Positions 661 through 41,616 of a DNA stretch of 42,415 nucleotides are shown in pieces. The notes beneath the pieces are model-generated. The model was not told the DNA's origin and did no database searches. It worked only from the letters and a program-made list of their open reading frames with translations. The stretch spans positions 1 through 42,415 of the forward strand of contig JAAYJI010000262.1 in NCBI GenBank assembly GCA_012523015.1, in the 5' to 3' direction. The position numbers and the translations under genes were made by a program. Numbering within the stretch: the stretch's first letter is position 1; each line of letters starts with the position of its first letter. The DNA is from Candidatus Hydrogenedentota bacterium (lineage in GTDB: Bacteria; Hydrogenedentota; Hydrogenedentia; Hydrogenedentales; CAITNO01).

Positions 661-1626
661 TTATAGTATGACAGGCAGTCCTGTTTGAATAGACTCACTG
701 GCGGCAAGGGTCACGCGCAAGGTCTTAAGCCCTTCCGCATAACTGCTGCGTATGCCCGTGCGTTTATTTTGTTTCAAGGCCTGAAGGAACAAGTCATTTT
801 CAATTTCATATTTGTTCTTCGCACTGAAATGTTTGATGATTTTATAGTCTTCCCGTATTTGCAGCCGATCGTCGGAGAGGGTCAGGCTAAATTGGGGCGT
901 ATCAATTTTCATGGACAGACTGCCGGGATGATTTAAGATGCAGGTCGTAGATATAGAGGCTACGGCGCCCGTTTTCAATCTGAGATTGATCACGCTGCTT
1001 TCTTCCACATCAAAATCTTTTATTTTCGACAGGCAGCCACGGGTACCCATGGCGTGCACTTCTGACACGGGCCCGCAAAGATAAAGCAGCAAATCGATGA
1101 TGTGTGAAGTTTCGTCCATGATCTGACCGCCGCCTTGATCTTTACGTTGAGACCATTTCGCTTCCGGCGGGTGGGTGTGCCAACTGCCCGTGATCAGAGA
1201 ATTGACCTCTCGGGAAAGAAGGCGCTTCGCTTGTTGGGTCAGATCACAATACCGATAACAATAACCCACCTTCGCCAGTATCTTGGATTTTCGGATGGCG
1301 GCGCTGATGGTACGTGCTGTCTTAATATCCAGTGCAATGGGCATTTCGATAAACAAATGGATGCCCCGTGTTGCTGCTTCTAGTTCATAGGCGCCGTGCG
1401 CAACGGGGGGTACCGCAATATAGACTGCCTGCGGTTTGCCCGTATCGTACATGGAAAGGGCATCTTTAAAAACAGGGACGTTGAAACGTGCTCCGAAAGA
1501 TTCTGCTTTTTCTTGATTGATATCAAAGCAGCCGACGAATTCCACATCGTTTCTTTGTGCAAGCAAATTACTATGGGTGGAGGCTATTGCGCCACAACCG
1601 ATGAACCCGATTCTGACAGGGTTCAT
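661..1626 (-). CDS. Gfo/Idh/MocA family NAD(P)-dependent oxidoreductase
   Basis: The 321-residue protein has an N-terminal Rossmann fold with the dinucleotide motif GFIGCGAIA (residues 7-15) and a C-terminal alpha/beta domain with GGGQIMDETSHIIDLLLYL, matching the family pattern of a conserved Asp and a catalytic His. These enzymes oxidise or reduce sugars, inositols or related polyols. The usual E-K-P motif at the end of the Rossmann domain reads E-M-P here (E94 M95 P96), so the lysine usually assigned to catalysis is absent. The start at 1626 is set by an AAGGAG site three bases upstream. No signal peptide is seen, so the protein should be cytoplasmic. It sits between a secreted sialidase-like protein and an aldo/keto reductase, which suits a sugar-catabolic role. 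The substrate is unknown. Confidence 0.9.
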   Translation of the reverse strand: MNPVRIGFIGCGAIASTHSNLLAQRNDVEFVGCFDINQEKAESFGARFNVPVFKDALSMYDTGKPQAVYIAVPPVAHGAYELEAATRGIHLFIEMPIALDIKTARTISAAIRKSKILAKVGYCYRYCDLTQQAKRLLSREVNSLITGSWHTHPPEAKWSQRKDQGGGQIMDETSHIIDLLLYLCGPVSEVHAMGTRGCLSKIKDFDVEESSVINLRLKTGAVASISTTCILNHPGSLSMKIDTPQFSLTLSDDRLQIREDYKIIKHFSAKNKYEIENDLFLQALKQNKRTGIRSSYAEGLKTLRVTLAASESIQTGLPVIL

Positions 1627-1814: not shown

Positions 1815-4460
1815 TTAAGGAATGATCTTCACATGAAGATGCGTATAGGCGGCGTAACCGCTATCATTTTCCCGTTTCACCTTCACGATGTAGTCGCCCG
1901 GCTGCTCATAGTGGTGCTCCAGCATCGTGTAACCATCCGGTGCGTGGGGGTCGGGATTCTTGCCCGATTGAGTGTAAACGGGGGCGCTGCCATCACCAAA
2001 ATCCCATATTTCTGATCCATCTTTAAATCCGAAAGCCCGCACGGAAAAGGTAATACGATCTCCGGCTTTCAGATTAAAGGTAGGCGTGTATGCAACATGG
2101 AGCGAAGGCATATATCTTTCAGGATTCTCAGGATTAAGGACGTGTACGATGGCAAAATCATAATCGACCGCCCCGCGGCTATCGGTAATTTTTAATAGCT
2201 CTTCAAATTTACCGGGCTGCAAATACTGGCGTTCCACTTTTTCTCCCACGGCCGTTTCACCATCGGTAAACTGCCACTCATAAGAGTTAATGGCATCTGC
2301 TGCAGTCCAGCTGTGCGATCCGTCTAGGGTTATGGTGGCGCCGGGCATGATCAAATGACGTTGACGGGCGCAGGCTAAAATTTCAGGTTGGTATTGATTT
2401 ATATAGGCTTCTCGGATGAGTGCATGGGAAGGCAGCGTTCCCCAATCGCCGCTGGGTTGTCTGCATTTAATTTCAAAATGCAAATGAGACCAACCGCCGC
2501 TGGCGCCCTCTTTGCCGACTAGACCGAGAAAAGTTCCTTTTTTCACGTAGTCGCCTAATTGCACGCCTTCATCTATGTGGCTAAAATGGCTGTAGCGATA
2601 AAACCAGCCGCGCTCATCGTATAAATACAGCACATCAGCCCGTGACTTAATCGGCGTATCTTCCGTAAATCCCGACAAATTTTGACCCCGCGCAGAAACG
2701 ACCAAGCAGTCGCAGGCTGCTAAAACACGGGTTTGTCCTTCCACTGCGCCCAAATCAATGCCCGCATGATAGTAAACCGTTTTTGAAATACGTGCGCCGC
2801 CATCAACGGGTTCATTATCAAACCACGTATGGGAACTATGCCAAAGCTGGTCGATAGGGTAAAGAAAGGAATCAGGCTCCATAAGGGGGCTGTCTTTCGG
2901 CCACAGCCGCAGACGAATCTCCTTTCGCAATCCCCAATAATCTTCTGCGGCGCCTTTGTTATACCCCTGCGTGATGGGCGCGTCCACCAATACCCCGTCT
3001 ACCTCTACGGGTCGGTTATAAAGTCCGGCCGTCAAGGTTGTTTCGTCTTCTCCAACGCGCAGGGTCACGTCAGCGCGACGCACGGCATCGCGGATAGGAT
3101 CGCGAGTTTCATCCAATCCAAGTACCGCCAGATCGACTGTACTGCCGTCTTGCAAGGGAAGGGAAAGTTCCTCGCCTACATCAAGATCAACCAGCGTAAA
3201 AAGCGGGGACAGCGAAGGATAGGGGAAGCGCACCGCCAGATTGGGGCTTTCCCATTGGATCCGTGCGCAAAATAAGGCTCCCGTAGCGCCGCGCGTGCGC
3301 ATCTCATCATTCCAGATGCCTTCATTGACGGTGACCCACGACTCGCGCTCTGACACGTTGGCTGCGCCAAAATTACCTAAGGTAGCGCCACGCTCCGGAA
3401 TCAAAACACGCTCCGATGCCCGTAAGACACATAGATTATCCGTATCAACTTGGGCAATGAACAAGGGCGCGCGGTGGCGCATAATGTGGTCGTTGTCGGC
3501 GCCACGGCGTGTATAGACTAAAAATAGAGCGTCGGAATGGGTCACCCAATGCTGCTGCGTGTTATAGGAACCCAATTCTTGACCGTCATCAAAAAGCCAC
3601 GGAGTAATAGGGTCAAAATGTATCCCGTCTGTGCCGGACGTGACGTAGCCTCCGTTATCATTACGCAAGGTCAAATAGAAGCGATCATCAAGGCGGGCAA
3701 GGGAAGGTTCACATAATCCGCGCCCCCCTTCAAAGGTCATTTCCGTGCCATGCTCAAGGTAGGTGAGTTCTTCGCCGTCAAAGGCGCAGCGTGCCACCGT
3801 AACCGAATAATCCTTTTGTCCGTCAGTCCCATAATACAGGGGCAGCAAGAGATTGCCATTGGGCTCAATCAGCCATTGGGCGCAGGCGTTACGGGAAAAA
3901 TGGAACTTGGGCTCATCCGGCATCTCAAGGACTTTCCAGCCGGTCCAGGTATCGGTCTTCGGATCGTACAGGGCATAGGCGGTTTGATCGGAACGTGCTT
4001 CATCTTCATAAAGACTGCCGTCGGGCCGATAATAAAGTTGAGCGCCAATGGCGAGCACCTTTCCGGTTATAGGATGGTAGCCCGGCGTTACATCACACAC
4101 AGCGCGAATGGTGCCGCCCGGGCCATCCCGCCATACCAGTTCGGGGATTTCGGTAGGACCTGTCCACGTTTTTCCAAGATCATCTGTGCGCATGCTATAC
4201 AAGCCCGAGTAGAAATCGGAGACCTGCAAATGTTTTTGTACAGTCATAAGGATGGCAGGCTGTCCATCCCGCCCGCCTTGTGGAATAGCGGTGACGCGTG
4301 GATGAAACCATAAGAACTCACCATCATCATGTTCAACAGCAGTATCCAATTGAATGGTATATGCCGGCGCTTCCTGCGCCTCTGCAAAAGTAATTTGAAA
4401 AAGAAATGATACGGCAGCAATCAGCACAAAGGCATTAACGGTTATTCTTGTACGATTCAT
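1815..4460 (-). CDS. Secreted multidomain protein: sialidase-like propeller, M23 peptidase domain, two PKD domains
   Basis: The protein has 881 residues. Residues 1-28 form a signal peptide. Residues about 45-410 resemble the sialidase/BNR superfamily: there is an Asp-box-like RTDDLGKTW (91-99) and a CEPSLARLDDRFYLTLRND strand pair (about 250-268). Residues about 420-530 look like a beta-rich linker. Residues about 560-670 form an M23 (LytM-type) metallopeptidase domain with HAGID (565-569, the HxxxD zinc pair), YRYSHF and HLHFE (H659, H661). Two PKD-type domains follow, at about 691-777 and 785-879 (IWDFGDGS at 818-825). All M23 zinc ligands are present, so peptidoglycan or peptide hydrolysis is possible; whether the sialidase-like part is catalytic cannot be judged. 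The product is probably periplasmic or extracellular. The ATG follows an AAAGG-type site. No frameshift is seen across the domain joints. Confidence 0.85.
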   Translation of the reverse strand: MNRTRITVNAFVLIAAVSFLFQITFAEAQEAPAYTIQLDTAVEHDDGEFLWFHPRVTAIPQGGRDGQPAILMTVQKHLQVSDFYSGLYSMRTDDLGKTWTGPTEIPELVWRDGPGGTIRAVCDVTPGYHPITGKVLAIGAQLYYRPDGSLYEDEARSDQTAYALYDPKTDTWTGWKVLEMPDEPKFHFSRNACAQWLIEPNGNLLLPLYYGTDGQKDYSVTVARCAFDGEELTYLEHGTEMTFEGGRGLCEPSLARLDDRFYLTLRNDNGGYVTSGTDGIHFDPITPWLFDDGQELGSYNTQQHWVTHSDALFLVYTRRGADNDHIMRHRAPLFIAQVDTDNLCVLRASERVLIPERGATLGNFGAANVSERESWVTVNEGIWNDEMRTRGATGALFCARIQWESPNLAVRFPYPSLSPLFTLVDLDVGEELSLPLQDGSTVDLAVLGLDETRDPIRDAVRRADVTLRVGEDETTLTAGLYNRPVEVDGVLVDAPITQGYNKGAAEDYWGLRKEIRLRLWPKDSPLMEPDSFLYPIDQLWHSSHTWFDNEPVDGGARISKTVYYHAGIDLGAVEGQTRVLAACDCLVVSARGQNLSGFTEDTPIKSRADVLYLYDERGWFYRYSHFSHIDEGVQLGDYVKKGTFLGLVGKEGASGGWSHLHFEIKCRQPSGDWGTLPSHALIREAYINQYQPEILACARQRHLIMPGATITLDGSHSWTAADAINSYEWQFTDGETAVGEKVERQYLQPGKFEELLKITDSRGAVDYDFAIVHVLNPENPERYMPSLHVAYTPTFNLKAGDRITFSVRAFGFKDGSEIWDFGDGSAPVYTQSGKNPDPHAPDGYTMLEHHYEQPGDYIVKVKRENDSGYAAYTHLHVKIIP

Positions 4461-4549: not shown

Positions 4550-4655
4550 AGCCTCTTAAGCCCATGAAACACAGCCGCTGTTTGGGGACGCTTTAAAAAT
4601 GGTTGCGGCTGCGTTCCCAAGCCCGATTGATATTGAAGGAAAGAATGCTATATCC

Positions 4656-5366
4656 ATGACGATCCGAGCAATTACTTTTGATTTTTGGTTAACCTTGTTC
4701 AGAGACCTTAACGGTGAAAAACGGCATGATTTACGGATGGCAGCACTAAGAGAGGCCATTCCGATCAGTGAAGAAGAGGCGGACAAAACACTGCGGGAGG
4801 TCATGGACCATTTCATGCGTCAGCATATTGAAACACAAAATACGCTCACGCCCATGGACGCGGTGCAAATGGCCTGTGCGAAACATCAAACTTCGTTGAG
4901 TTCCTCTGAGGCGGCCAAAATGGCAGCAGCTTTTGCAGACGTTATTTTGCTGCATCCGCCGGAGCCCATTGAAGATGCTCTTGAAGCGGTGACGGCAGCG
5001 GCAGAGAAAGTACCGGTCGCCATCATATCGGATACGGGTATTAGTCCGGGCAAAAACTTAAGCATTTTACTGGAGCGGCAAGGCTTTCTTCCGCTGTTTC
5101 AATCGTTGGCTTTTTCCGATGAAATCGGCGCGGCAAAACCGCAGCGCATTATGTTTGAAACGACCGCGCAGCGCTTGGGCGTGAGAATTGATGAGCTTTT
5201 ACATATAGGCGATTTAGAGCCCACCGATATCGTGGGCGCACAACAGGTGAACAGTAAAGCCGCTTTGTTTACCGCTGTCAATGATCGATTTGCTGAGGGG
5301 ACCAAAGCGGATTATATTTTTCCGTCTTGGCGCCATTTTCTCGAACTCCTGCCCGACCTTATTTAA
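4656..5366 (+). CDS. HAD-superfamily hydrolase
   Basis: The 236-residue protein shows the four HAD motifs: motif I FDFWLTL with nucleophile D9, motif II IISDTG with S125, motif III K161 in GAAKPQ, and motif IV HIGDLEPTD with D186 and D191. A helical cap lies between about 20 and 110. The family usually hydrolyses phosphate esters through a phospho-aspartate. The second Asp of motif I (general acid/base) is replaced by Trp (D-F-W), which may lower phosphatase activity or change the reaction. The ATG at 4656 was chosen over an upstream in-frame ATG at 4599 because it begins directly at the conserved first strand and has a GAAGGA stretch about 13 bases upstream. Its neighbours do not reveal the substrate. 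Confidence 0.85.
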   Translation: MTIRAITFDFWLTLFRDLNGEKRHDLRMAALREAIPISEEEADKTLREVMDHFMRQHIETQNTLTPMDAVQMACAKHQTSLSSSEAAKMAAAFADVILLHPPEPIEDALEAVTAAAEKVPVAIISDTGISPGKNLSILLERQGFLPLFQSLAFSDEIGAAKPQRIMFETTAQRLGVRIDELLHIGDLEPTDIVGAQQVNSKAALFTAVNDRFAEGTKADYIFPSWRHFLELLPDLI

Positions 5367-5592: not shown

Positions 5593-5627
5593 TACAGGCG
5601 ATTTTTCGAAGTGAAGCGTGCTGATTG

Positions 5628-6722
5628 ATGATTTTGCTAAAAAAACAGGAACAAAAATTAGGGAAAGTAAATATCAACACCATGATGATAGACAACCCTG
5701 AAAAAAGAATACTTTCTTATGTTGCTGCGCCTAGGACAAAGAACAGCAAATCTGAAAGAAAAAATATTTCTAAAACAGTGTTTTGCTTCCTTCGTCGAAA
5801 AGTTTTCGCAACTACGCTTTTATCAGCTGCCGTACTTATCCTTTTGCGGGCTTCTGTTGCTTATGCTGCTGAAGATCCCACGAAACCGGATTTTGAAATT
5901 CCCAAGACCCATATTGAAGTGCGCGTGCTGCCCGATCCGAAAAGTGTGGAACAAGATCCCGTACCCAAGGCGCTGTCTCAAAGTGAAGAAGAGAAGCGAG
6001 ACACGGTTCCTACTTTAGACTCTCTCCATCTCGAAATGCAGACCCTGCGCGATGAATTGCGTCTCTTACAATCAACGCTTGATTTGCTGATCAATCAAAT
6101 TATGGAAGATCAACGCAAAGAAAATGAATTTCTCCGACAAGAGATCTGGCGTTTAAATCAACAACGAGAAGAATGCGGATTACCCGATCAAACGCGAATA
6201 CCACGGCCCGGTATTGGGATTATTCGGGAAGTTTTAGACGGGCAAGATTTCTACGGTCAAGAAGATGAATTTGACGAACAAAAGCCGCTGATTGATTTTT
6301 CTCAAGGAGCAATACTGCTTCCCGAGGATTATAGCGATTCCGAAAAAGAAGAAGAAGAAGAGGTTCCGGGAAGCGGCAAAGCCAGTTCCTATACCATCCT
6401 CCAAGAATGGGGCCGTGACCCCGATATGGTCGCTGAAATAGGAGAGGGCGCCGCATCGTTAAAAGGGATGGTAGGTGTTGTGCCTGCCGGGAGTCCCCGC
6501 GCCGATGTGGAACAGCTCGGCCGTGAATTAAGAAAACAGTATGACGAATATGATAACATCAATATAGAATTATTCGATGATGAAGAGGCTGCCCAACACT
6601 ATGCACAAACACAGGTGGGCGATTCCGCGCACCGTGTTTTGAGCATTTCTAAACATGCAACCTCCGGGCGCGACATTATCCTATACATAAAAAAGGGGGA
6701 AGCCCAAGAGGTTGCGCCCTAG
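5628..6722 (+). CDS. Hypothetical membrane-anchored coiled-coil protein
   Basis: I do not recognise this 364-residue protein. It begins with about 55 polar, basic residues, followed by one hydrophobic segment (about 60-80, ending ASVAYA-AED) that could be a signal anchor or a late signal peptide. Residues about 125-180 are rich in Leu, Glu and Gln with heptad spacing and likely form a coiled coil. An acidic run (KEEEEE) sits near residue 242. The C-terminal 120 residues are mixed alpha/beta in appearance, with no catalytic motif that I can name. The start is uncertain: TTG 5625 and ATG 5628 are adjacent, ribosome-site support is weak, and a later ATG pair near 5682 is possible. If the N-terminal extension is real, the protein is probably anchored with the coiled coil outside the cytoplasm. 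Confidence 0.6.
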   Translation: MILLKKQEQKLGKVNINTMMIDNPEKRILSYVAAPRTKNSKSERKNISKTVFCFLRRKVFATTLLSAAVLILLRASVAYAAEDPTKPDFEIPKTHIEVRVLPDPKSVEQDPVPKALSQSEEEKRDTVPTLDSLHLEMQTLRDELRLLQSTLDLLINQIMEDQRKENEFLRQEIWRLNQQREECGLPDQTRIPRPGIGIIREVLDGQDFYGQEDEFDEQKPLIDFSQGAILLPEDYSDSEKEEEEEVPGSGKASSYTILQEWGRDPDMVAEIGEGAASLKGMVGVVPAGSPRADVEQLGRELRKQYDEYDNINIELFDDEEAAQHYAQTQVGDSAHRVLSISKHATSGRDIILYIKKGEAQEVAP

Positions 6723-8334: not shown

Positions 8335-8363
8335 TTGAAATAATTAAAGAGTTGGGATACACT
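8335..8363 (+). promoter_or_regulatory. Sigma70-type promoter for the ChbG-like deacetylase gene
   Basis: TTGAAA (8335-8340) and TACACT (8358-8363) are separated by 17 bases. The predicted start near 8370 gives a leader of about 60 bases before the ATG at 8433. It points away from the rnpB promoter in the same intergenic region. Confidence 0.5.
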
Positions 8364-8432
8364 GTTATTTCCTTCCAAGCACTTTTGTTAAGTGTGCCCT
8401 ATTTTATTTTCAACAAGAAAAAGGACGTGATT

Positions 8433-9410
8433 ATGAATCGTTTTGTTGTGGTAGGTATGATCCTGTTATTTTCTGTATCTTTCGCCCCTGTTGATCTTCT
8501 TGCACAAGAAGGACCCACTTATGCAGAACGTCTTGGTTTTCCTGCTGATGCTCGTGTCGTGATTTTTCACAATGACGATGTCGGGCTTTGTCACGAGGCG
8601 AATGAAGCAAGTATGCGCGGCGTACAGGAAGGACTGATCACGTCGTGGAGTGTCATGTTCCCTTGCGCATGGGTTCCGGAGATCCGTGACTTTCTGAAAG
8701 AACATCCGGAGACCTGTTCCGGTGTGCATCTTACGCTCACTTCAGAATGGGATAAATACCGGTGGCGGCCCATTTCTTGTGTAGAAAGCTATCCCGGACT
8801 TGCGGATCCCGACGGCTATCTTTGGGACAATGTGCGCCTAGTCGCGGAGCACGCAACTGCCGACGAAATCGAGGCAGAGATTCGCGCGCAGATCGCAACG
8901 GCAGAAAAATTAGGTATGCCCATTACCCACTTGGACACCCACATGGGCACGGTCTTCGCCACCGATGAATATCTAATGCGCTATGTGTCCGTAGGTATTG
9001 AAAAACAAATTCCCGTACTCTTGCCCGGCGGTCACATGAGCTTGTTGTGCAAGGAAGACCCCGATATGAAGGAGAAAGTGGATGTCATTCGTGTGATCGC
9101 GGCATCGCTCTGGGAATCGGGCTTGCCCGTTATCGATGATGTTCACACCGACTCGTATGGGTGGAAGGATGCTGATAAGAGCGATAAATTTGTCGCATTG
9201 TTGCCCGATTTAAAACCGGGGATCACACAGGTGATTATTCATGCCACCGTGCCTTCCGACAATTTCGCGCAAATATCCGATTCGAACATAAAGCGGGGCG
9301 GTGACTACCACGCCATGATGAGTCCAAAATTAAAAGAAGCCATCGAAAAAGAAGGCATTATATTGACTTCTTGGCGTGAGTTGATCGAGCGCAGAAAAGC
9401 AGTGAAATAA
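8433..9410 (+). CDS. Secreted ChbG/HpnK (YdjC-like) carbohydrate deacetylase
   Basis: The 325-residue protein starts with a signal peptide (residues 1-25, ending DLLAQE). The metal-dependent deacetylase fold follows: HNDDVGLCHEANEAS (46-60) with the catalytic and metal-binding Asp residues and His, GVHLTLTSEW with another metal His, and ITHLDTHMGT with the third metal His. Known relatives remove acetyl groups from chitooligosaccharides (ChbG) or from N-acetylglucosaminyl hopanoids (HpnK); here the signal peptide suggests an exported substrate. The ATG at 8433 was preferred over 8352 because an AAGGACG site precedes it and the mature reading begins with a proper signal peptide. It is transcribed divergently from rnpB and ends 28 bases from the convergent deacetylase gene. 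Confidence 0.88.
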   Translation: MNRFVVVGMILLFSVSFAPVDLLAQEGPTYAERLGFPADARVVIFHNDDVGLCHEANEASMRGVQEGLITSWSVMFPCAWVPEIRDFLKEHPETCSGVHLTLTSEWDKYRWRPISCVESYPGLADPDGYLWDNVRLVAEHATADEIEAEIRAQIATAEKLGMPITHLDTHMGTVFATDEYLMRYVSVGIEKQIPVLLPGGHMSLLCKEDPDMKEKVDVIRVIAASLWESGLPVIDDVHTDSYGWKDADKSDKFVALLPDLKPGITQVIIHATVPSDNFAQISDSNIKRGGDYHAMMSPKLKEAIEKEGIILTSWRELIERRKAVK

Positions 9411-23957: not shown

Positions 23958-26135
23958 TCACCCTTCTATAGTGTCTGATTCTCCGGATGGGGGCGCTTCC
24001 TGGGCAGGCGCAGGCGGCGCAGGCGCATCGGCACCCGCTTCTTGGTTCGTGGGAGAAGGTGGGGGAGGGGGCACATAGGCAGGCGGTGCCGTGCCGGCAA
24101 TATACGCTTCGCGATAGCTGCCGCCTCGTCTGCCGGTTCTTCGGTCGATAGAGAAAAATTCAATGCCCGGCGGCACTTCAAAGTCTTCTACAGGCAGATC
24201 CTGTTCTGCCTCCAGCATAAAATCAACCCAAATGGGGCAAGCCAATCGTCCGCCTGTTACATCGGCACCGCTGCCTAAAGAGCGGTTGTCCCGGTAGCCA
24301 ACCCAAACCACGGTTGTATAGTCAGCGGTGAAACCACAAAACCAAGCATCGCGGCTCTCATTCGTCGTGCCTGTTTTACCGCCTACAGGACGTTCTAGAA
24401 CATGGGCGCGCCAGCCGGTAGGATAATAGCCTCCCGTGCGGCAGACTCCTTGCAACATGCTGTTGAGCACATAGGCGACCTTCGGATCCATGGCTTGTTC
24501 CGAGCGTGCAAAATCTCGGTAATTATAGCGCTGTATACCATCGGCATCTTGGATGTCGGTCACCAAAATAGGATCGTAACGCATGCCGCCATTAGCAAAG
24601 ACAGAATAGGCTACACATTGAGTCAGGGGTGTGACCTCACCTGATCCCAAGGCTATCGTAAGTCCCTCAACGTCTGTGGGTACGCCGCAGCGTTGTAAAT
24701 AGGAGCGGACCATCGATGTGCCCACTTGATCTGCAATCTTCACCGATACAATGTTGATCGATTTTTCTAAGGAGTAGCGTATGGGGACGGCGCCGCTGAA
24801 TGATCCGCCGAAATTTTTGGGTGTCCACCAGACCCCTGCCGGTGTTCGCCGAGAAAAGGGAGCGTCCACAACGATGGTGGATGGGGTCATTCCTGAAGCG
24901 ATGCCTGCCGCCCACACGAAAGGTTTCACGCTTGATCCCGGCTGGCGACGTGCCTGCGTGGCGGTATTATATTTTTCAAGTAAAAAATCGCGGCCGCCTA
25001 CCATGGCGCGTACTTGACCGCGATAGGGAGGCCGGTTATCAATACAGACCAAGGCGCCGGAAACGGGCATGGAATTACCGTCTTTATCTTTGCGGTTTTT
25101 ACCAAAGCGCATGTCGAAGCTTTCCAGCGCATCCAACATGACACGCTCCGCAATTTCCTGAAGACGCATATCAACCGTGGTATATACTTCAAGTCCGTCA
25201 CCAAAAACTTGTTCCGATTTATATTGGCTTAAGATGAAACGGCGTACTTCTTCCACGAAGTAGGGAGCTCGGAAACGACCGCGGACGGAATAGTCAATTA
25301 ATGCACTATCCGGTTCACGCCGTCGTACCGACGCGAGCATATCTTCCTGCAGCGCTTCTTCATATTCGGCTTGGGTGATAAATTTATTTTCCAACATCTG
25401 ACCCCACACGGTATTGCGACGACTCAACGCGATCTTTGGGTTGTTTTTGGGATTATTGGAATTGGGCCAGCGGCTCACTCCTGCCAAGGTGGCGGCATCG
25501 CTCAAGCTTAATTCATAGCAATGTTTTCCGAAATACTGCTGCGCTCCCGTTTCCACGCCATAGGCACTGATCCCAAGGAAAACTTGGTTGAGATAGAGCT
25601 CTAAAATCTCATCCTTTGTAAAATCACGTTCCACTTGCAGGGATACCAAAGCCTCACGCAATTTACGCGCATACGTTCGCTCCTGGCCAACTTGCAGATC
25701 TTCCACATTGCGAACCACCTGCTGCGTAATGGTACTGCCGCCGCGCATTTTCCCCGTCTGAACCATATATAAAATGGAATTTAAAATGGCATCGGGCCGC
25801 ACGCCTTTATGCTCGTAGAATAAGCCGTCTTCTGTGGCGATAAAGGCTTTTTGCACAAAGAGAGGAATATCATTCAGGCGTACCAGATGCCGTTCTTCCA
25901 TTGAGAATTCGCCGATTAATTGACCGTCGCTGCTATAAATTCGAGTGCCCACTTTAGGCCGAAAGTCGGCCAATACCTGGGAAACATTATGGCGTGTATC
26001 ATTAATCAGCCAGACAAACCAGCCCAGTCCAATGCCCCACAAGGCGGCAACGACGAGCATAATCGTCATGAATATACCAAGACAGCCCCGGCGCTTTACT
26101 TCGGGTACAGATTCTGTAGAAATTTCTTTATTCAT
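23958..26135 (-). CDS. Class A penicillin-binding protein (PBP1A-type transglycosylase/transpeptidase)
   Basis: This bifunctional enzyme polymerises lipid II and cross-links peptidoglycan at the inner membrane. The 725-residue protein has a membrane anchor (about 19-44), a GT51 domain with [12 protein letters not shown] (catalytic E102) and [13 protein letters not shown] (131-143), and a transpeptidase domain with S401-x-x-K404 in QPGSSVKPF, the S459-I-N461 motif and [12 protein letters not shown]. The C-terminal 50 residues are rich in Pro, Ala and Glu ([12 protein letters not shown] and following), a disordered tail. Length is typical. All three transpeptidase motifs and the GT51 glutamate are present, so both activities should work. 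The start is the ATG at 26135. Confidence 0.95.
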
Positions 26136-38768: not shown

Positions 38769-38955
38769 AAAAATCTCCTGAACCCTTCTTTCCATAAGAA
38801 CGGTATGTTTGGGCACAATAATACCTGTTGTAGAATGGTCACGGCAACACCGCGCCGCCAATGTCCGATGAAACCGCCTTTTAAAACCATTAGTCCACTC
38901 ATGGGAATGTTATATCACGTAAAATAACCGCCAATCTATGGAAGGGTGCTGTATT

Positions 38956-41616
38956 ATGCACAAGCCTTTTTTGATCTTGAGTTGTCTGTTACTGTCTTTT
39001 TGTGCCGCCGCCATCGAAAGTGAAAGCCTCTTCCTTGATCAAGGCTGGCGGCTTCAATCAGGCGCGAAGATTGATGAGACAGGTGAAACACTGTCGCTGC
39101 CGCATATGGATGTCAACGATTGGTATTCAACGGATATACCGAAAACAGTTCTTGCCGCGCTCGTGGATAAGGGCGTTTATCCTGATCCCTACTTCGGTCA
39201 AAATATGAAATCTATCCCCGGCTATCAGGACGGCAGTTGGCTGGTGCAGCGCGAGGACAGCCCCTTCAAATCTTCGTGGTGGTATCGTTGTGAATTTGAT
39301 TTGCCCGCCGCTCAAGACGCGGAATATTATACGCTCCATTTTGACGGCATCAATTATAAGGCTGTTATTTGGCTCAACGGCAGGAAGATCGCCGATAAAG
39401 ATGAAGTTGTCGGCATGTTCCGGAGATTCCAGTTCCCCGTAACGGATCAGTTGGTACGGGGCGGCAAAAATGTGCTCGCCGTCGAAATAATCCCGCCCGG
39501 CTTGTTGGAAGGGAAGCAGCCGCGAACCAAACAAATTGAAGCGACCACAGGCTGGGATGATCACAACCCGCAGCCGCCTGATATGAATATGGGTATCTGG
39601 CAGCCTGTCTATCTGCGGCGGCAAGGACCGGTCACGCTCCAACATCCTTATGTGGAGAGCGATTTGATCCTGCCCGCCCTCCAACAAGCCTCCCTGATCG
39701 TGTCGGCTTGGTTATTAAACAACAGTGATGAAGCAATTGCATGTACCGTATCAGGGCGTATTGAAGGCCGAGAGTTTGTCCAGGAAACTGCCCTGGCGCC
39801 GTCTGAGAAGAAAGAGCTTATTTTTAGTCCTGCCGATTTCTCCGTCTTGGTCGTAGAAAATCCCCGTGTTTGGTGGCCCCATCCTGCGGGAAATCAGGAA
39901 CTCTACCAACTTGAGCTTGAAGTCTCCGTTAAAGGAGAACAGTCTGACGCCCTAAAAACTACCTTTGGCATACGAGATTGCAGTACCCACGTCACGGCAG
40001 AGGATTGGCGCAAATATCAACTGAATGGAAAGGATATCCTGATTCGGGGCGGTGCTTGGATGACCCAAGACATGCTGCTTAATCTGGATGCGTCGCGCTA
40101 CGAAGCACTTGTCCGCTACGCTCGAGAAGCTAATTTGAATATGCTCCGTTCCGAGGGTTTTTCTATTCGCGAAACAGAGACCTTTTATGATTTGTGCGAT
40201 CGTTCCGGTGTCATGGTCACACAACAACTTTTTGGCCGCAATCTTCCCGATGAAGCCTTGGCGATTGCTTGTATCGAAGACACCTTATTGCGCATACGAA
40301 ACCATCCGAGCCTTGTGCATCTTTTGGGACATGATGAAACTTTCCCGACAGAAAGCTTGGATCGCGCATATAGAGAACTTATAGAAAAGCATCGGATACG
40401 GCGCAGTTATCAGCCCCATTCCGGCACCTTCAATATTGGTACACGCGCTAAGACAGGGGGGACTCGGACAGGTACCCGTGAACTGTGGACCTATACCGGC
40501 CCATCCCATTACTATTGGATTCAAAAACGCAAGTTTGATTCTGCTTGGGGATTCGCCCAGTCGGGAGGTATCGGCGGCGTGCTCGCGGCGCGGGACAGCA
40601 TACGGCAGATGCTGCCGGCAAATGACCTCTGGCCTGCAGAAAAGAATGAGAGCTGGTCTTTCCACACGGTAACGCAAGGCATCTCGTATTTTGACGCTGT
40701 ATTCCGAGCTATGGACCGCGGCTATGGAGCGCCCAAGTCTTTTGATGACTTCTGCAATAAGTTGTATGCCATGAATTATAACAGCGCCCGCGGCATGTTC
40801 GAAGCCTACAGCCGCCACAAATACGATGCCTTGGGCATAACAACGTGGAAATATAATGCGGCTTGGCCCGCCGCACTGACATGGCAATATGTGGATTGGT
40901 ACAAGCGTCCGACTGCCGCTTATTATGGCGCTAAGAAAGCCTGCACGCCCGTGCACGCCCTCTATGCCCACGATGATCAAGGGCTCTATGTTGTCAATAG
41001 TCTCTATGATGCGCAACCAAATTTGCCCCTGCACCATGCTTTATATGGTCTCCATGGAAAGAAAGTTACAGAGCGAAGAGATACGGTGTCAGTCGGTGAA
41101 GATGGGCGCGTCCGCGCCGCTGTATTGGATTTTCCTGAAGAGGTGGGCGAAACGTTCTTTTTACACCTTCAATTAGAAGATGACCACGGCGCGCCTTTGT
41201 CCAACAATTGCTATTGGCTCTCACGAACGCCGGATATACCGGGTAAATCAGGCAGTGGAAAAGACGGTATTTTTTACACAGAACCCAAATCAACGGCAGA
41301 TTTTACTGCCCTCCAATCCTTGCCCGAAGTAGAGTTAGATACCCGTGTATCCTGTGCGGACGATCAGCTGCGCGTGGAGGTGCAGAATCCTTCGGAGCAC
41401 ATTGCTTTCTTGGCGATTTTCGCAGTGGTGGATCCGGAAACAGCGCTGGAAGCTGCACCCGTATACTGGAGCGATAACTACATTACCTTAATGCCTGGGG
41501 AATCACGTGTTCTTCAGGCAGAAACGAAAGGGATGAAGGAGGGAGCCTTCCTGCGTGTGGAGGGCTTCAATATTTCTTCCCAAGAAGTACCTTTGATAAA
41601 AGAAGCGGGTGTGTAA
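38956..41616 (+). CDS. Secreted glycoside hydrolase family 2-type protein (exo-beta-glucosaminidase-like)
   Basis: The 886-residue protein has a signal peptide (about 1-19). A GH2 sugar-binding jelly-roll (about 30-225) includes WWYRCEFDLPA, LHFDGINYKAVIWLNGRKI and NMGIWQPVYLRRQGP. An Ig-like domain (about 230-345) and a TIM barrel (about 350-660) follow, and beta domains fill the C-terminus. The barrel resembles exo-beta-D-glucosaminidase/CsxA-type enzymes: ILIRGGAWMTQDMLL, NMLRSEGFS, and LVHLLGHDETFP, where D460 fits the acid/base position. The region expected to hold the nucleophile reads WGFAQSGGIGG (531-541), with no Glu in the usual place, so activity is uncertain. A GAAGGG stretch precedes the ATG at 38956. 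The gene is divergent from the epimerase gene. Confidence 0.8.
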   Translation: MHKPFLILSCLLLSFCAAAIESESLFLDQGWRLQSGAKIDETGETLSLPHMDVNDWYSTDIPKTVLAALVDKGVYPDPYFGQNMKSIPGYQDGSWLVQREDSPFKSSWWYRCEFDLPAAQDAEYYTLHFDGINYKAVIWLNGRKIADKDEVVGMFRRFQFPVTDQLVRGGKNVLAVEIIPPGLLEGKQPRTKQIEATTGWDDHNPQPPDMNMGIWQPVYLRRQGPVTLQHPYVESDLILPALQQASLIVSAWLLNNSDEAIACTVSGRIEGREFVQETALAPSEKKELIFSPADFSVLVVENPRVWWPHPAGNQELYQLELEVSVKGEQSDALKTTFGIRDCSTHVTAEDWRKYQLNGKDILIRGGAWMTQDMLLNLDASRYEALVRYAREANLNMLRSEGFSIRETETFYDLCDRSGVMVTQQLFGRNLPDEALAIACIEDTLLRIRNHPSLVHLLGHDETFPTESLDRAYRELIEKHRIRRSYQPHSGTFNIGTRAKTGGTRTGTRELWTYTGPSHYYWIQKRKFDSAWGFAQSGGIGGVLAARDSIRQMLPANDLWPAEKNESWSFHTVTQGISYFDAVFRAMDRGYGAPKSFDDFCNKLYAMNYNSARGMFEAYSRHKYDALGITTWKYNAAWPAALTWQYVDWYKRPTAAYYGAKKACTPVHALYAHDDQGLYVVNSLYDAQPNLPLHHALYGLHGKKVTERRDTVSVGEDGRVRAAVLDFPEEVGETFFLHLQLEDDHGAPLSNNCYWLSRTPDIPGKSGSGKDGIFYTEPKSTADFTALQSLPEVELDTRVSCADDQLRVEVQNPSEHIAFLAIFAVVDPETALEAAPVYWSDNYITLMPGESRVLQAETKGMKEGAFLRVEGFNISSQEVPLIKEAGV

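Follow-up and report, generated by a model that had tools for sequence, protein, structure and literature searches.

The gene at 1815-4460 of the DNA analysed here (the window, a stretch of 42,415 nucleotides from a Candidatus Hydrogenedentota bacterium) encodes a protein that combines a predicted sialidase-type β-propeller with an M23 peptidase domain and two PKD domains, and the same fusion recurs in other genomes. We regard it as an even call that this is a secreted protein with two catalysts, in which a propeller processing acidic sugars is fused to an M23 peptidase that cuts peptide in the same polymer. The reading frame is real as originally predicted and lies on the minus strand, a point that had been left unsaid. 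It starts with ATG and encodes 881 residues without internal stop codons.

All features of the protein are given with their minus-strand positions. By its sequence, the N-terminus is a predicted Sec-type signal peptide (residues 1-28, MNRTRITVNAFVLIAAVSFLFQITFAEA; 4377..4460) with a positive charge at the start, a hydrophobic core, and small residues ahead of the likely cut. The propeller comprises residues 32-405 (3246..4367), modelled with a pLDDT of about 90, and is followed by a linker with the fusion joint (residues 406-420; 3201..3245), which was placed by the ends and starts of the stand-alone halves. A β-rich domain without a Pfam name (residues 421-556; 2793..3200) appears as strands in the model and is conserved in the M23-PKD relatives. 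Next come the M23 domain (residues 562-670; 2451..2777), assigned through Pfam (PF01551), Foldseek, and its invariant residues, and the two PKD domains at about residues 695-775 (2136..2378; PF18911) and about residues 784-879 (1824..2111; PF00801 at 788-871). In Pfam, Peptidase_M23 matches residues 564-665 with 46.9 bits (cut-off 28.7), and PKD_4 (68.7 bits, cut-off 27) and PKD (47.1 bits, cut-off 23.5) match two stretches each. Every score exceeds its cut-off, and a chance match of the M23 and PKD domains is thus ruled out. The first 560 residues, including the propeller region, have no Pfam match at all. The original prediction of a propeller, an M23 domain, and two PKD domains therefore holds, but it left out the β-rich domain (here about residues 416-555), which precedes this M23 domain in all M23-PKD relatives.

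In the AlphaFold2 model of residues 31-410 the block has pLDDT values of mostly 80-97, and Foldseek matches the model to sialidases (1eus with E 7e-11 and a TM-score of 0.73 by target length, 7lbu with E 5e-12, and 1eut). Based on the model confidence and these GH33 matches, residues of about 30-410 are assigned to a sialidase-type propeller. Region 45-410, whose failure to fold in this way had been named as a reason to give up the prediction, is folded as a propeller in the model. BNR_2 (PF13088) is matched by 24 of 29 relatives (best E 2.8e-8) but not by the 881-residue protein itself, and the scores listed for relatives (28.7-28.9 bits for L038 and L110) are below the cut-off of 31.4 bits. 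The propeller keeps 44-76% identity among relatives in three phyla, which excludes chance. Aligning its profile to the other BNR proteins of the same genome with hhalign gave only a spurious, blade-shifted match. This genome (G000) contains a second propeller of the same family (C298) and about ten more BNR_2 genes in 3.7 Mb. The propeller shares its fold with the GH33 sialidases (1eus/1eut of M. viridifaciens, 7lbu of P. acnes, NanH of T. forsythia, and the pneumococcal NanA and NanC). It differs from them in having its own conserved motifs (EPS...TLRND, ELGSYNTQQH, RHRAPLF, and TLGNF), and the sequence likeness of the 881-residue protein is too low for detection by BNR_2. While GH33 sialidases carry several Asp-boxes, only one strict Asp-box is present here, TDDLGKTW at residue 92, and FHPR is found at 52-55 where FRIP is expected.

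Five residues of the propeller, R55, D82, E251, R266, and R330, are identical in all 40 relatives, and Y299, N300, Q302, H304, Y316, R318, N363, and E380 are likewise invariant (40/40). In the PDB profile alignment, D82 is opposite a residue in the SSDWGDIG motif of NanA, which we take to be Asp372, counting the NanA construct from residue 317. Asp372 is the acid/base of pneumococcal NanA (PMC6377674). The spacing in the propeller, R55-(27)-D82 and E251-(15)-R266-(64)-R330, matches the active-site sets of T. forsythia NanH, R212-(25)-D237 and E407-(16)-R423-(64)-R487 (PMC9472817), and of NanC, R290/D315/E584/R600/R662 (PMC4646021). From this spacing R55, R266, and R330 look like the counterparts of the sialidase arginine triad. 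Similarly, D82 looks like the acid/base aspartate, judged by the local alignment, and E251 like its partner glutamate, judged by the spacing. The covalent nucleophile of GH33 enzymes is a tyrosine (Y518 in NanH, Y695 in NanC), expected 31-33 residues past the third arginine. Residues 361-364 here are L361-G362-N363-F364, of which G362 and N363 are invariant and position 364 is F, S, or N (40/40). None of the 40 relatives has a tyrosine at this place, and in the 881-residue protein there is none between residues 316 and 414. On this ground the propeller does not belong to the standard GH33 sialidases, and the sialidase activity that had been suggested for it is unsupported. By its conserved residues, the family looks as if it keeps an apparent carboxylate-binding pocket with an acid/base but without the covalent GH33 mechanism.

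Because the tyrosine is missing, the propeller may be only a binding domain. The main rival to two catalysts is that the propeller has no catalytic activity and only targets the protein in the manner of a lectin, leaving the M23 half as the sole enzyme. The missing tyrosine speaks for this, as does the finding that swapping the tyrosine of NanH for a range of residues resulted in inactive enzyme (PMC9472817). However, the thirteen invariant residues (the R55 to E380 set) form the pattern of an active site and not that of a drifting lectin, and the propeller also occurs alone, often in multiple copies per genome. In addition, a change of the tyrosine in the M. viridifaciens enzyme gave an inverting sialidase and not a dead enzyme (Watson 2003, as cited in PMC9472817), so that loss of the tyrosine need not mean loss of activity. 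We consider a dead propeller rather unlikely. If instead both halves are catalysts, two secreted proteins of Hydrogenedentota and Planctomycetota, a propeller of the sialidase superfamily and a zinc endopeptidase composed of the N-terminal β domain, M23, and two PKD domains, would have been fused. The propeller would bind and process an acidic, carboxylate-bearing sugar by means of the arginine triad, the aspartate, and the glutamate. In place of the GH33 tyrosine, water could attack directly (an inverting mechanism) or another residue could act. The M23 domain would cut short peptide links of the same cell-envelope or glycoprotein polymer, the PKD domains might provide spacing or contact to an insoluble substrate, and the fusion would keep two secreted activities that cooperate on one chain. 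What we observe are the domains, the fold predictions, the invariant M23 catalytic set, and the recurring fusion. What we infer is that either half is active, that the sugar is acidic, and that the halves cooperate. The coupling of glycan and peptide processing that was originally proposed is plausible. The further-reaching idea is that the propeller founds a sialidase-clan family of its own, of glycosidases or lyases that act on an acidic sugar without the tyrosine, and that M23-PKD is its dedicated partner protease. This idea is a tentative one and somewhat doubtful.

The M23 half has a complete catalytic set. H565, D569, and H625 are conserved in all 30 relatives, and H659 and H661 in all 29 rows that have a letter at these positions. 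H565, D569, and H661 are the metal ligands, and H625 and H659 the catalytic histidines. The positions H565/D569 and H659/H661 had been given exactly as zinc-ligand positions, and H625 can now be added. Together with the Pfam scores, the invariance agrees with the expectation of an active-looking M23 domain followed by two PKD domains. The M23-PKD half was modelled from alignment A3 with a pLDDT of 82.9 and a pTM of 0.82. This model was used for the M23 half because the first model, from alignment A1, had pLDDT values below 50 over residues 526-692. The poor M23 part of the first model probably resulted from alignment A1, which had set M23-only rows over propeller columns. With the M23-PKD model Foldseek found StM23 (9gy1), lysostaphin, Csd1/2/3, the LytM domain of EnvC, and collagenase PKD domains. 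Fold, metal ligands, and catalytic histidines are in common with the M23 endopeptidases lysostaphin, StM23, Csd1/2/3, and MepM. In contrast to these, the domain here has a long insertion between HxxxD and the histidine of YRYSH, its own N-terminal β domain, and two C-terminal PKD domains, and is without LysM or SH3 domains. The PKD domains of the clostridial collagenases ColG and ColH are alike in fold and sequence, but there they are part of a collagenase while here they follow an M23 peptidase.

Outside the Hydrogenedentota, the M23-PKD profile has matches in 23 of 392 Planctomycetota genomes (full-length in about 20) and in 2 of 195 genomes in the phylum of the Lentisphaerae record. On sequence grounds, the N-terminal β domain, M23, and two PKD domains constitute an unnamed, apparently secreted family of the Hydrogenedentota, the Planctomycetota, and, rarely, the Lentisphaerae phylum. 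Comparison of the family with NCBIfam reached no equivalog. Its members (L065, L070-L088, L119, L120) share about 460 conserved residues with swappable fusion partners, and usually M23-PKD is a separate gene of about 500 residues. The stand-alone Planctomycetota proteins (L070-L088) agree in domain order along all 460 residues (profile E-values down to 5e-219). Unlike the protein of the window, Planctomycetota proteins of this type are encoded by their own gene with their own signal peptide or have other fusion partners in place of this propeller. Within the family, L102 has a C-terminal α/β hydrolase of the BD-FAE type, L099 has an N-terminal domain weakly resembling neutral ceramidase (E 3e-4), and L107 and L120 have C-terminal TIM-barrel-like domains (weak). 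In one planctomycete clade (L092-L098), M23-PKD belongs to a conserved gene block that also encodes GH88-type, Ceramidase_alk-type, and PDZ proteins. In the planctomycete L090, M23-PKD is immediately preceded by the gene of a different BNR_2 propeller in the same orientation.

The propeller family of the window is found in 39 of the 392 Planctomycetota genomes, none of which has it fused to M23-PKD. It is present in 17 of the 23 genomes with M23-PKD (hypergeometric p-value 1.5e-14, ignoring kinship between the genomes). After collapsing one apparent clade, chosen by the likeness of the matches, it is present in 9 of 15 (p 1.6e-7). As a control, strong GH88 matches were shared with none of the 23 M23-PKD genomes. 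In most genomes that have both, the propeller and M23-PKD genes are not adjacent. The propeller also has other partners. It is combined with one or two SGNH/GDSL domains, N- and C-terminal, in L038:10575-12677, L039:10553-12715, L112, L113, and L004:5293-8292, and such fusions occur in Hydrogenedentota and Planctomycetota. A planctomycete propeller (L110:1504-4134) has about 500 extra N-terminal residues without Pfam match. The predicted pairing is a real fusion, but the wider stand-alone M23-PKD family and the SGNH/GDSL partners of the propeller had been missed. Among the papers searched, none joins peptidase M23, sialidase, and PKD domain, none deals with M23 and PKD in Planctomycetes, and none with a sialidase-M23 fusion protein.

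It could also be imagined that the M23 half is the producer's own envelope-remodelling endopeptidase and that being joined to a scavenging propeller makes no functional difference. In fold it neighbours M23 enzymes of the cell wall (Csd1/2/3, StM23, EnvC LytM), a class A penicillin-binding protein is encoded in the window (23961-26135) so that a cell wall to remodel should be available, and the numerous unrelated fusion partners suggest a loose constraint. However, the patchy occurrence of M23-PKD, in 10 of the 68 Hydrogenedentota genomes sampled and in the 23 of 392 Planctomycetota genomes, is unlike that of a housekeeping enzyme, and those partners that can be recognised are mostly hydrolase-like and thus not random. 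Such a neutral fusion seems improbable.

Of the 68 Hydrogenedentota genomes, four have the complete fusion. Besides the genome of the window these are G007, from the same genus, and two members of another genus in the family, G018 (record SLFT01000334.1) and G019. The three other proteins are 64-71% identical to the protein of the window over the full length, with the identical join point, and among the genomes searched the fusion is seen in a single bacterial family. In six further genomes (G014, G059, G036, G037, G035, and G065) M23-PKD and the propeller are separate genes at different places, and every readable M23-PKD start encodes a signal peptide. An artefact of assembly or binning that joined two neighbouring genes, for which the existence of homologues as separate genes might speak, as had been anticipated, has next to no probability given that the same join recurs in different assemblies and that the unfused Hydrogenedentota genomes have the two genes on different contigs and not side by side. 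Stand-alone propellers end at about residue 404-418 of the query, and stand-alone M23-PKD proteins, once past a signal peptide of their own, align from about 406-421 onwards. Because these ends and starts coincide, the joint is a domain boundary. In G008 and G009, which belong to the same genus, the syntenic gene encodes only a propeller ending at the joint and there is no M23-PKD match, so the two halves are not obligate partners. In G012 and G013, from another genus, the propeller next to the orthologous HAD gene runs on into an SGNH/GDSL hydrolase domain. In the M23 tree the fused halves share one side, weakly supported (66/53), and the propeller tree, in which rows L041-L045 were disregarded as an alignment artefact (M23-only rows over propeller columns), does not show the two fused pairs as one clade. 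Judging from both trees, the fusion may have arisen once or twice.

The neighbouring genes are conserved as well. The next gene downstream encodes a Gfo/Idh/MocA oxidoreductase (661..1626, minus strand), a conserved neighbour of this propeller within the genus, which has 52-66% identical orthologues by the propeller in L047, L048, and L049 (the one in L048 matches PF01408). It is followed by an aldo/keto reductase cut by the contig end (3..626, minus strand), whose orthologues in the corresponding position of these three loci are 71-77% identical (PF00248 in L048). The divergent upstream neighbour is a HAD-family hydrolase (4599..5366, plus strand) with 53-70% identical orthologues in L047, L048, L049, L038, and L039 (PF00702 in L048). 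In G008 and G009 the gene order is HAD hydrolase, propeller, Gfo/Idh/MocA, and aldo/keto reductase, and a few genes further G008 has a sodium:solute symporter, matched in G007 by a similar protein in this position. The oxidoreductase, reductase, and symporter neighbours would fit sugar scavenging. A protein without Pfam match (5625-6719, plus strand) is conserved with 46-60% identity at the same locus in L047, L038, and L039. Further along, the window encodes a YdjC/ChbG-type carbohydrate deacetylase (8352-9407, plus strand) whose start resembles a signal peptide, apparently an uncommon feature among deacetylases of this type. A GH2 exo-β-D-glucosaminidase-like protein with an Ig_GlcNase domain (38938-41613, plus strand) on the same contig points to the use of amino-sugar polymers.

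Taken singly, sialidase folds, M23 peptidases, and PKD domains are familiar, and each half of the protein has several partners. Of interest are the active site that lacks the tyrosine yet is otherwise invariant and the re-used M23-PKD cassette, and with them two uncharacterised families are marked out. With a propeller predicted to process glycans and a peptidase in a single chain, the protein is a concrete, conserved, and testable example of such a combination, and the natural series at related loci (fused, separate, propeller alone, and propeller with SGNH) allows testing the contribution of each half. A sialidase-clan enzyme with the arginine triad but without the tyrosine would bear on the need for a covalent intermediate. 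Should the further-reaching idea of a new propeller family with a dedicated partner protease be true, a single chain would dismantle both the glycan and the peptide of glycopolymers in the envelope or outside the cell, and three phyla would pair the same M23-PKD cassette with different hydrolases.
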